Origin: Gemmatimonadaceae bacterium
GTDB lineage: Bacteria > Gemmatimonadota > Gemmatimonadetes > Gemmatimonadales > Gemmatimonadaceae
Assembly (NCBI GenBank): GCA_035533755.1
Contig: DATLTC010000009.1
Location: 248,001 to 312,000 of the forward strand
Length of the DNA stretch: 64,000 nt
Direction of reading: 5' to 3'
Shown here: piece by piece, positions 10,730-30,651 of the stretch
How positions within the stretch are numbered: position 1 is the first letter of the stretch
How the letters are laid out: each line of letters opens with the position of its first letter
Position numbers and translations under genes: made by a program
Notes under the pieces: model-generated
Told to the model about the DNA's origin: nothing
The model's input: the letters and a program-made list of their open reading frames with translations, nothing else
Databases searched by the model: none

Positions 10730-11338
10730 GTGGGGGTGACCGCGCTGCTCGACTGGCTCGGCGCGCTGCCGCTGGGCGCCCTGTACGTGTGCCTCGCCGG
10801 CATCGCCGCCGCGGAGAACGTCTTCCCGCCGCTCCCCGCCGACAGCGTCGTCGCGTTCGGCAGCTTCCTGGCCGCGCGCGGCCATGGCTCGGCGCTCGCG
10901 GCCGTGGCCGCGGTCTGGATCGGGAATGTGGCCGGCGCCATGGGGATGTACGCGCTCGGCCGGCGGTACGGCGCCGAGCGCCTGGAACGCCGGTTGCTCG
11001 GCAACAAGGCCGAGCAGATGGAACGGCGGCTCACCGACTACTACGGCCGGTTCGGGCTGGCGGCGATCTTCTTCGGGCGGTTCGTGCCCGGCCTGCGAGC
11101 CCTCGTCCCCCCATTCGCCGGCGCGCTGCGCGTGCCGGCATTCACCGCGGCGCTCCTCATCGGCGTCGCCTCGGCCATCTGGTACGGCACCGTGAGCTAC
11201 GTGGGATTCACGCTCGGCGCCGATTGGCCCGCCGTCGTCCGCGTGCTGTCGCGGGACGGCGGCCTGATCGCCGCCGTCGCCGCCGCCGTCATCGCGGCGC
11301 TCGTGTTCGCGCGATGGATGCAACGGAGCCGGCGCTGA
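10730..11338 (+). CDS. DedA family membrane protein
   Basis: This is a 202-residue inner-membrane protein of the DedA (SNARE-associated/VTT) family. Members have been implicated in flipping undecaprenyl phosphate and phospholipids and in membrane homeostasis. Family motifs are visible: ENVFPPLPAD near residue 30, and the FFGRFVPGLRALVPPFAG block around residues 113-130, with several hydrophobic helices. The GTG at 10730 was chosen; a second GTG at 10736 is possible. Its stop overlaps the xerD ATG by one base (TGATG). Substrate unknown. Confidence 0.88.
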   Translation: MGVTALLDWLGALPLGALYVCLAGIAAAENVFPPLPADSVVAFGSFLAARGHGSALAAVAAVWIGNVAGAMGMYALGRRYGAERLERRLLGNKAEQMERRLTDYYGRFGLAAIFFGRFVPGLRALVPPFAGALRVPAFTAALLIGVASAIWYGTVSYVGFTLGADWPAVVRVLSRDGGLIAAVAAAVIAALVFARWMQRSRR

Positions 11339-12243
11339 TGGACGACGCCGCGGCCCGGGGCTTCCTGCTCGAACGGTTCAGCGACTTCCTCTCGTTGGAG
11401 GAGGGCGCGTCGCCGCGCACGCAGGAGGCCTATGCCCGCGACGTGAATCGCCTGGCGGAGTTCGCCACCGCAAAGGGCGCGCGCACGCCGGCCGATGTCA
11501 CCTCCAAGCTGCTGCGCGAATACGTGTACCACCTCAAGGATCTCGGCCTCGCGCCGGCGTCCATTCGCCGCAGCGTCTCCGGGGTGCGGACCTACTTCCG
11601 CTTCCTGCTCGGCGACGGCGTCCTGCTGCAGGATCCCAGCGAGCGGCTGGAAACCCCCAAGAAGTGGCGCACGCTGCCCGACGTGCTCTCGGTGGACGAG
11701 GTGGCCACGCTGCTCGCCGCGCCGACGATGGACGATCCGCTGTACTTCCGGGACCGGGCCATGCTCGAACTGGCGTACGGCGCCGGGCTGCGCGTGTCGG
11801 AGTGGATCACGATCGGCGTGAAGGACATCCTGATGGCCGACGGCGTGGTGCGCGTGCTGGGCAAGGGCAGCAAGGAGCGGCTCGTGCCGATCGGCCGCAA
11901 CGCGATCTCCGCCATGGCCATCTATCTGCGAGAACTGCGGCCGCGCCTCGAGCGGGGCAAGGGCCGGGGCGTGCTGTTCCTGAACGCCCGCGGGGAACCC
12001 CTGTCGCGCATGGGCGCTTGGACCATCCTCAAGAAGTACGTCGAGCGCGCGCGGATCGAGAAGCACGTCTCGCCGCACACGCTCCGCCACTCATTCGCCA
12101 CCCACCTCCTGGAGGGCGGGGCGGACCTGCGGGCGGTGCAGGAGATGCTTGGACACACCGACATCTCCACCACGCAGATCTACACCCACGTGGACCGGGA
12201 GTACCTGCGAAGCGTGCATCGGCAGTATCATCCACGGGCCTGA
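11338..12243 (+). CDS. xerD: Tyrosine recombinase XerD
   Basis: This 301-residue tyrosine recombinase is of the XerC/XerD type that resolves chromosome dimers at dif under FtsK control. The full catalytic set is present: Arg152 (GLRVSE), Lys176, His247 and Arg250 (HTLRH), His273 (LGHTDIS) and nucleophile Tyr282 (QIYTHV). The C-terminal end LRSVHRQYHPRA resembles E. coli XerD more than XerC; whether a second Xer protein exists cannot be told here. A probable dif site lies about 17 kb downstream in this window, at 29667. Confidence 0.93.
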   Translation: MDDAAARGFLLERFSDFLSLEEGASPRTQEAYARDVNRLAEFATAKGARTPADVTSKLLREYVYHLKDLGLAPASIRRSVSGVRTYFRFLLGDGVLLQDPSERLETPKKWRTLPDVLSVDEVATLLAAPTMDDPLYFRDRAMLELAYGAGLRVSEWITIGVKDILMADGVVRVLGKGSKERLVPIGRNAISAMAIYLRELRPRLERGKGRGVLFLNARGEPLSRMGAWTILKKYVERARIEKHVSPHTLRHSFATHLLEGGADLRAVQEMLGHTDISTTQIYTHVDREYLRSVHRQYHPRA

Positions 12244-28664: not shown

Positions 28665-29486
28665 ATGATCCCGTCGGGCCGCGAATTCTTCAAGATGAGC
28701 GGGTCGGGCAACGACTTCGTGTTCGTGGATGCCCGAACCCAAGCCCCCGGACCACTCGATCAGGTGGCGACGATCCAGGCGATCTGTGCCCGCGGCACCG
28801 GGGTAGGGGCCGACGGCATCGTCTTCCTCGAGCAGAGTGCCGTCGCATCGGTCCGGATGCGCTATCTGAACAGCGATGGTTCGGTCGCGGCCCTCTGCGG
28901 CAACGCCACCCTCTGCACAGCCCGGCTGTTCGTGGAGTTGGGGGGGGCTCGTCCGGGGCAGCCGTTCACCATAGAATCGGCGGCCGGCGTGCTCCAGGCG
29001 GTCATAGGCCCACAAGGTCCTGAGGTCGGGATGCCGGCCGTGGCCGAAATGACCCCCGACGCACACCCCGCGCTGGCGCCGGGAGAACGGCGCATGGGGT
29101 TCGCCAAGGTGGGGATTCCGCATCTGGTGGTGCTCTGTGATGACCTGGAGCTGGTGGACGTCGCGGGTCGGGGCCGTGGGCTCCGCTTCGATCCGGGGTT
29201 CGCCGAAGGCACCAACGTGGACTTCGTGGCCCGCGGTTCCGACGGTTCCTGGCACATGCGGACCTACGAGCGCGGGGTGGAGGGCGAGACCCTGGCCTGC
29301 GGAACGGGCGCCGTGGCGTCCGCCGCGGTTCTGAGCCGCTGGGGCATCGGGGCGGCGCGCGAGACGATCGTGACCAGGTCCGGCAAGCCGCTGACCATCC
29401 GCCTCGAGACCGATCAGGACCGGGTGCTTCCGTCCTTGGCCGGCGAAGCCAGGATCGTCTACCGAGGCCAGCTGGGCGAGGTCTGA
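28665..29486 (+). CDS. dapF: Diaminopimelate epimerase
   Basis: DapF interconverts LL- and meso-diaminopimelate for lysine and peptidoglycan. The protein is 273 residues. Both catalytic cysteines are present: Cys78 in ALCGNAT and Cys212 in ETLACGTGA, with GNDFV near the N-terminus and EGTNVDF. Two small deviations from E. coli are seen: CGNG reads CGNA and the NPH loop reads IPH; other phyla vary here too. It is the last + strand gene before the convergence region; no clear terminator follows. Confidence 0.95.
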   Translation: MIPSGREFFKMSGSGNDFVFVDARTQAPGPLDQVATIQAICARGTGVGADGIVFLEQSAVASVRMRYLNSDGSVAALCGNATLCTARLFVELGGARPGQPFTIESAAGVLQAVIGPQGPEVGMPAVAEMTPDAHPALAPGERRMGFAKVGIPHLVVLCDDLELVDVAGRGRGLRFDPGFAEGTNVDFVARGSDGSWHMRTYERGVEGETLACGTGAVASAAVLSRWGIGAARETIVTRSGKPLTIRLETDQDRVLPSLAGEARIVYRGQLGEV

Positions 29487-29586
29487 CCCAGCCCACTGGA
29501 GACTGGCCGCGCACCGGGGCACCGGAGCCAGGCGCCGACAGGTCCCGAAAAGCCAACATCGTAACAAACAACATCACATAGACTGT

Positions 29587-29616
29587 GTAACTCATTGCAT
29601 ACCATTGCAATGTTAC
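29587..29616. repeat. Inverted repeat upstream of the dif-like site
   Basis: GTAACTCATTGCA (29587-29599) and TGCAATGTTAC (29606-29616) pair over 11 bp with a two-base bulge, around a six-base loop. The right half also contains the perfect 10-bp palindrome CATTGCAATG (29603-29612). It lies 50 bp left of the dif-like site in the AT-rich patch. It lacks a U-run, so it does not look like an intrinsic terminator; a protein-binding site is possible. Confidence 0.5.
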
Positions 29617-29666
29617 GCAGAGCGCCAGCCAATCTGCCCACAAGAGCCAGGCTTTTCAACAGTCTT

Positions 29667-29694
29667 AGTTGACATAATCTTTCTTATACGAACT
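29667..29694 (-). other. dif: Probable dif site (XerC/XerD recombination site)
   Basis: On the + strand, AGTTGACATAA (29667-29677), a 6-bp centre TCTTTC (29678-29683) and TTATACGAACT (29684-29694) form a 28-bp 11-6-11 site. Read on the - strand the arms are AGTTCGTATAA (XerC side) and TTATGTCAACT (XerD side); by my reading each agrees with gamma-proteobacterial dif arms (for example TTATGTTAAAT) at 9 of 11 positions. Partial symmetry continues outwards (TTAGTT and AACTAA). It lies where + and - genes converge, as expected at the terminus, and a xerD gene is in the same window. No other copy was noticed. Confidence 0.8.
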
Positions 29695-29698
29695 AACT

Positions 29699-29717
29699 TG
29701 GCGACAGACTGTCGCCA
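29699..29717. repeat. Perfect 9-bp inverted repeat adjoining the dif-like site
   Basis: TGGCGACAG and CTGTCGCCA flank a single A, giving a 19-bp perfect palindrome that starts 4 bp after the 28-bp dif-like core. As RNA it would fold with a 7-bp stem and a 5-nt loop, but no U-run follows on either strand. Its closeness to the recombination site may be chance, or it may bind an accessory protein. Confidence 0.55.
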
Positions 29718-29778
29718 CACGGGCGCCCAACTGGCCCAATGATCGGCGCAGCAGGCCTCAGCCTAGTGCCACGCGATC

Positions 29779-29812
29779 GAGGCCGCGAACGCTGGTCGGC
29801 GCTCGCGGCCTC
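29779..29812. terminator. Strong hairpin between convergent genes
   Basis: GAGGCCGCGA (29779-29788) and TCGCGGCCTC (29803-29812) form a perfect 10-bp stem with a 14-nt loop. It lies about 80 bp beyond the end of the - strand YfgM-like gene and about 290 bp beyond dapF. A U-run is lacking, so it is not a textbook intrinsic terminator, but it could stop or stabilise transcripts from either side. Confidence 0.4.
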
Positions 29813-29889
29813 AGTCCATGGCTACACGATTGTCAGAATTCCTGGCCCGGCGTTTCCATGCACGCCGTCCAGCTCAGGAGGCCCGCAGA

Positions 29890-30558
29890 CTAGCCCTTGG
29901 ACGCGGGCTTGGCCTGGACCTCACCGAGCCGCACCCGGGCTTCGGCGGCCACTCCCTGGGCCTTGGGGTCGTCCGCCAGCTTCTCCCAGATCTTCGTGGC
30001 GGTCGCCGTATCGTGCGCCGCCAGGAAGGCCCGAGCGGCTTTGGAGAGCTGGTACGCCTTGTAGTCGTCGGCCTTGGCGGCGTCGGCCGCCTTCTGGTAG
30101 GACTGTGCCGCATCGGCCGGCTTGTTGCTCTGCATCTGGCCGTCGCCGATCAGCCCGTAGATGTCCGGCATGTCCATCGACGCCGCGCTGCTGGGCAGCA
30201 GCTTCTGGAGCACCGCAATCCCGGCCTGGACCTTGCCGGCGTTGTAGTTCATCTGGGCCAGCAGCATGCCGGCCTCGATCCCGGACTGCGTATTGGAGTA
30301 CCGGTCCACGACCTTGTTCAGGTCGCTCACGGCCAACGCCGCGTTCCCCGCCCCCACCGACTGCAGCGCCGTGTTCAGCGCCCGCTCGGCATTCTGGTCG
30401 CGGATCTGGACGGACCTGGCATAGAACCAGTAGCCGGCCCCACCCGCGGCGACGACGACCGCGGAGATGGTGAGCAGGCGCGCGTTTCGCTGCAGCCACT
30501 CGATGACGCTTTCTTCGCGGTTGGTGCGGACGGGAGTCTCTACGACAGGCTCGGTCAT
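29890..30558 (-). CDS. YfgM-like TPR membrane protein
   Basis: A 222-residue protein with one N-terminal transmembrane helix (about residues 27-46, LLTISAVVVAAGGAGYWFYA) and a periplasmic TPR-like domain (about 50-205), matching the YfgM/TPR_21 pattern. YfgM in E. coli interacts with the Sec translocon and periplasmic chaperones. The ATG at 30558 was chosen because the frame upstream runs into the tRNA gene at 30578. It ends the - strand gene series facing dapF and may be co-transcribed with the tRNA. The exact role here is inferred. Confidence 0.75.
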   Translation of the reverse strand: MTEPVVETPVRTNREESVIEWLQRNARLLTISAVVVAAGGAGYWFYARSVQIRDQNAERALNTALQSVGAGNAALAVSDLNKVVDRYSNTQSGIEAGMLLAQMNYNAGKVQAGIAVLQKLLPSSAASMDMPDIYGLIGDGQMQSNKPADAAQSYQKAADAAKADDYKAYQLSKAARAFLAAHDTATATKIWEKLADDPKAQGVAAEARVRLGEVQAKPASKG

Positions 30559-30577
30559 GACGATGGTGGGTGTGAGG

Positions 30578-30651
30578 TGCCCCTGGGGTGACTCGAACAC
30601 CCGGCCAACGGTTTAGGAAACCGCTGCTCTATCCACCTGAGCTACAGGGGC
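30578..30651 (-). tRNA. tRNA-Arg (anticodon CCU)
   Basis: A 74-nt cloverleaf on the - strand: 7-bp acceptor stem (GCCCCTG with CAGGGGC), D stem GCTC/GAGC, anticodon stem GCGGT/ACCGT with loop TTCCTAA (anticodon CCT, reading AGG), 5-nt variable loop and T stem GGGTG/CACCC with loop TTCGAGT. The discriminator base is A; the CCA end is not encoded (CCT follows). It lies 20 bp before the YfgM-like gene and behind a probable promoter. Confidence 0.96.

Follow-up and report, generated by a model that had tools for sequence, protein, structure and literature searches.

The question raised by positions 29667 to 29694 of the window (by which we mean the entire stretch of 64,000 nucleotides analysed here) is whether this 28-mer, taken to be a probable dif site by a sequence-only reading, is indeed the chromosome dimer resolution site of a Gemmatimonadaceae genome, and what accompanies it. 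The plus strand is AGTTGACATAATCTTTCTTATACGAACT, i.e. AGTTGACATAA TCTTTC TTATACGAACT, and the dif reading runs along the minus strand, where it comprises the XerC arm AGTTCGTATAA (29684..29694), the 6-bp centre GAAAGA (29678..29683) and the XerD arm TTATGTCAACT (29667..29677). The layout is 11-6-11 (28 bp), a 6-bp centre being flanked by 11-bp arms that are similar to those of XerC and XerD, as that reading had described, and the outward symmetry it had noticed is likewise present: the inverted repeat continues for 2 bases beyond each arm, yielding 13-nt arms which are 77% complementary and 6 nt apart. The reading had also credited each arm with 9 of 11 positions shared with gamma-proteobacterial dif. 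When the minus strand is compared with what we take to be the dif sequence of E. coli, this is correct for the XerD arm (9/11) but not for the XerC arm (8/11); the plus-strand reading attains only 7/11 and 7/11. With what we likewise take to be B. subtilis dif, the minus-strand values are 8/11 for the XerC arm and 10/11 for the XerD arm. In its own genome (3.25 Mb, a 98% complete MAG) the 28-mer occurs exactly once when up to 3 mismatches are allowed, and a reversed control had no match there.

The site is widely conserved. A degenerate form of it was matched in 43 of 60 relatives. Across 298 genomes of the phylum, a relaxed core was found in 241, almost always as a single copy, and controls gave close to no matches. 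Within the genus of the window, the sites of three further genomes (G001, G002, G003) have an unchanged XerC arm, and their XerD arm is TTATGTAAACT, the form with A instead of C at position 7 that prevails in family f1, to which the window's genome (G000) belongs. The C variant is unusual, yet it recurs elsewhere (G159, G260, G175). The XerD arm of families f2 and f3 is TTATGTTAAGT rather than TTATGTAAACT, so that the arm has changed between families. The sequence of the centre varies among relatives (GATGTA, GAAATG, TATGTA, GATATG, TACATG), its length of 6 bp being set by the search pattern itself. The earlier remark that little has been described of dif in such organisms is fair: a single Gemmatimonadetes genome received a dif prediction from Kono et al. 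2011 (PMC3025954), an equally computational assignment in the same phylum, whereas the site is here followed through 298 genomes.

Conservation extends to the position of the site between genes. It lies within a 403-bp intergenic stretch (29487-29889), flanked on the XerD side by dapF, encoding diaminopimelate epimerase (28665..29486, plus strand; TIGR00652, 193.7 bits), and on the XerC side by a convergent gene for a TPR protein (29890..30558, minus strand; PF09976), the start of which was set below a tRNA gene. The AT-rich patch at a reversal of gene direction, to which the sequence-only reading had pointed, is thus real, the GC content dipping to 0.43-0.46 around the site versus ~0.69 in the surroundings. 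The tRNA gene (tRNA-Arg, 30576-30651) is 0.9 kb from dif and was the sole match in an Rfam scan. Throughout families f1 and f2 the arrangement glycosyltransferase - dapF - dif - TPR gene is kept, often with apt next; almost all loci of these two families have dapF no further than 1.5 kb from dif, and it adjoins dif in 65 of the 80 matches listed from an independent collection. Two hairpins were observed in the same intergenic stretch. The first, a perfect one formed by TGGCGACAG and CTGTCGCCA (29699-29717), starts 4 nt past the XerC arm; three other genomes of the genus retain one half of it, AGACTGTCG, and not the hairpin, and we have therefore rejected it as a part of dif. The second, a strong 14-bp hairpin at 29779-29812, is located 3' of the TPR gene and is probably its terminator.

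A dif site is expected where the polarity of the chromosome switches. In a complete relative (G024; a single contig of 4,636,964 bp) the cumulative GC skew climbs as far as 1,925-1,930 kb and then declines, with dif at 1,930,285, and the strand counts of GGGNAGGG flip at dif from 12/2 to 1/11; on the window's own contig (C9) the counts of this motif are low. Octamers picked on the complete relative alone for their leading-strand bias, and then applied to contig C9, switch polarity at 279-284 kb, i.e. 1-7 kb from dif at 277,667 (277.7 kb). The GC-skew maximum of C9, however, is located near 165-170 kb, ~110 kb from dif. Hence, of the coincidence with the skew switch that had been proposed as a check, the skew of the complete relative provides an exact instance and the octamers a close one, while the skew of the contig itself deviates. 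The latter is weak and noisy and constitutes a mild objection to dif at the terminus; the gap of ~110 kb, spanning 165-278 kb of C9, possibly stems from an insertion or rearrangement that occurred recently beside the terminus. Since the octamers of C9 flip at 279-284 kb and the skew of the complete relative turns at dif, dif marks the polarity switch.

The proteins acting at dif are encoded as well: (i) xerD, noticed before in the same window, is at 11314..12243 on the plus strand and scores 352.7 bits with TIGR02225, above the cut-off of 329.6, (ii) XerC is encoded on contig C19, with TIGR02224 as best model and 330.4 bits, just below the cut-off of 335.15, and (iii) FtsK with its gamma domain is encoded on contig C100. 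Computed observations cover the 28-mer and its conservation, the location at the terminus, all three proteins and, for the complete relative, the polarity of the signals; positions 29667-29694 are almost certainly the dif of a Gemmatimonadaceae chromosome, which bears out the interpretation first offered. It might be objected that attachment sites of integrated elements mimic dif and that a tRNA-Arg gene is near, so that the 28-mer might belong to an integrated element or plasmid (IMEX, cer/psi type). The 28-mer is, however, present in a single copy, the genes on both sides of it are ordinary, it is at the terminus according to the skew of the complete relative and the C9 octamers, and the same housekeeping genes neighbour it across the order; this synteny largely refutes the attachment-site explanation, which we consider extremely improbable.

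As a dif site, the 28-mer is ordinary. It shares with the dif-XerCD-FtsK systems of E. coli and B. subtilis the 11-6-11 architecture, the single copy at the terminus and the set of XerC, XerD and FtsK gamma; its XerD arm is nearly that of B. subtilis, and converging GGGNAGGG signals, as in the known systems, are seen in the complete relative. By analogy with these systems, recombination at this dif would be expected whenever an odd number of crossovers has fused two sister chromosomes. FtsK, steered by converging signals of the GGGNAGGG type, would join the two dif copies at the division septum, and its gamma domain would activate XerD; strand exchange across the 6-bp centre, first by XerD and second by XerC, would then resolve the dimer. 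Two features set the Gemmatimonadota site apart from dif of E. coli and B. subtilis, namely a gene neighbourhood kept over an order and, in most relatives, a phased element beyond the XerD arm which resembles DnaA boxes.

The general view is that dif requires nothing beyond its 28 bp, XerCD and FtsK. The element beside the XerD arm, which the sequence-only reading had overlooked, is a motif matching TGTGGNNAA with at most one mismatch, found at an offset of 5/6 and/or 15/16 nt outward from the XerD arm in 34 of 35 dif sites, that of the window included. The 35 loci come from families f1, f2 and f6 and were picked regardless of the motif; at other offsets within 300 nt the background amounts to 11 matches in 10,360 positions. 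In the window the inner box TGTTGAAAAG is at 29652..29661 on the minus strand, 5 nt past the XerD arm, and the genus retains the inner copy only, two sister genomes reading TGTGGAAAAG and TGTGGATAAG there. Where there are several copies, a spacing of 10 bp, or one turn of the helix, separates them; three copies occur in some genomes (e.g., G057, G059, G245). Across the phylum, TGTGGNNAA boxes also occur at dif in further genomes and in part of families f3 and f4. On the XerD side they were found in 0 of 20 dif sites of family f5 and in none of family f7. Four of the 20 f5 sites (L042, L043, L049, L050) have an outward box, TGTGGAAAA or TGTGGAGAA, 9-11 nt past the XerC arm. An exact-pattern scan for core, spacing and box over 84,980 species yielded at least 80 loci; among the matches listed, 77 of 80 are assigned to Gemmatimonadota, most of them by title, one 'unidentified bacterium' has the same gene neighbours, and just three are without sign of the phylum. 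Hence, dif in Gemmatimonadales and two related families appears, judged from sequence, to be extended on its XerD side by one to three TGTGGNNAA boxes phased at 10 bp.

The constant presence of dapF on the XerD side, in the order, suggests another explanation, namely that the boxes are the 3' end of dapF, acting as a terminator or regulatory element, and are close to dif through synteny alone. The distance between dapF and dif, however, ranges from ~58 to >900 bp among loci, as opposed to the fixed 5/6 and 15/16 nt between boxes and dif, and in family f6 the boxes stay with dif although no dapF match is found within 1.5 kb of it. We reject this explanation on the spacing and regard it as very improbable. 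Protein-binding sites beside a Xer core are familiar from plasmids: cer employs ArgR and PepA, and psi PepA and ArcA, as accessory proteins. The boxes described here are candidates for such sites; unlike the accessory sequences of cer and psi, they are chromosomal, 5-16 nt away on the XerD side, and of another motif. Similarly, datA and DARS (PMC4585315) consist of phased DnaA-box-like repeats outside oriC, whereas the Gemmatimonadota boxes are directly at dif, at a fixed spacing to the XerD arm. In the open-licence literature we found no report tying box clusters of the datA/DARS type to dif, and no prior report of a DnaA-box-like or other accessory element at dif; the main text of Kono et al. 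2011 (PMC3025954) does not contain the word 'flank', and no accessory motif was noticed in it. As far as we could find, the DnaA-box-like companion of dif is thus undescribed.

Which protein, then, reads the boxes? Of 25 genomes examined in the phylum, 21 have a TGTGGNNAA box ahead of dnaA, mostly as TGTGGAAAAGT or TGTGGATAAGT at ~-65 to -90. The classical DnaA box, TTATCCACA, reads TGTGGATAA on the opposite strand. In most of the 25 genomes the box in front of dnaA conforms to TGTGGA(A/T)AAG(T), and the boxes at dif have TGTGG..AA in common, with base 7 varying. Because a matching box sits in front of dnaA, DnaA is the leading candidate for the reader of the dif boxes. Three observations count against it: (i) base 7 is A or T at dnaA and often G or C at dif, (ii) the genomes of families f5 and f7 have DnaA yet lack the XerD-side box, so that, contrary to what a general role of DnaA at dif would predict, a box is not seen wherever DnaA and dif co-occur, and (iii) phyla other than Gemmatimonadota possess DnaA without such a box. 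If DnaA did bind beside XerD, it would constitute an accessory factor linking dimer resolution or termination to the state of the initiator. We tentatively suggest that DnaA may bind beside XerD at dif and gate or assist dimer resolution or termination, a proposal to which we give somewhat less than even weight.

The genus of the window calls for a separate remark. We did not find dnaN in its four MAGs (G000, G001, G002, G003), nor domain IV of DnaA in the three examined for it (G000, G001, G002), and the dnaN gap is systematic within the genus; dnaN was also not found in four other genomes (G148, G193, G218, G236), and domain IV likewise not in those of them examined for it. Since dnaN is essential and yet missing from the same genomes, the gaps probably arise from binning at the origin region, and we have dropped the idea that a loss of DnaA explains the absence of the outer box in the genus. 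In several Gemmatimonadota genomes (e.g., L257:8178-10142, minus strand, and G024:C1:1693232-1694875) we encountered a protein in which two DnaA-type AAA+ domains stand in tandem and domain IV had no match. Its gene adjoins CheR-like and roadblock-like genes in an apparent motility or signalling operon, and it was rejected as an initiator.

FtsK offers itself as another reader. Its gamma domain contacts XerD, so that a position beside the XerD arm would be favourable for a signal, and the fixed spacing would suit loading signals similar to KOPS. Yet the polarised signals around dif in the complete relative are of the GGGNAGGG type, the boxes read towards dif are pyrimidine-rich, which is opposite to KOPS, and they are at most weakly polarised around dif (left 5/2, right 0/2); families f5 and f7, moreover, have FtsK gamma and lack the XerD-side box. 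We thus disfavour FtsK loading signals as an unlikely identity of the boxes. A further protein of Gemmatimonadota, either a Xer cofactor or a polar replication-fork barrier, might instead bind them, their likeness to DnaA boxes then being due to chance. The restriction of the boxes to the lineage, the differing base 7 at dif and at the dnaA promoter, and the GC skew of the complete relative, which turns exactly at dif as a fork barrier would produce, are all in accord with such a protein. On the other hand, the dif boxes closely match the box that is conserved ahead of dnaA, and no candidate accessory protein turned up; we consider such a protein a realistic possibility, albeit one that we would not bet on.

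The conserved arrangement dapF - dif - TPR gene provides a reliable marker of the terminus for genomes of Gemmatimonadales, which are mostly uncultured. Beyond this practical use, the helically phased, DnaA-box-like flank suggests an accessory factor in chromosome dimer resolution that has so far escaped recognition, and the combination of dif with a DnaA-box-like element points to a possible direct link between the initiation and the termination of replication. If DnaA indeed proves to be the protein that binds beside XerD, the replication cycle of Gemmatimonadota would have its beginning and its end coupled by one and the same protein.
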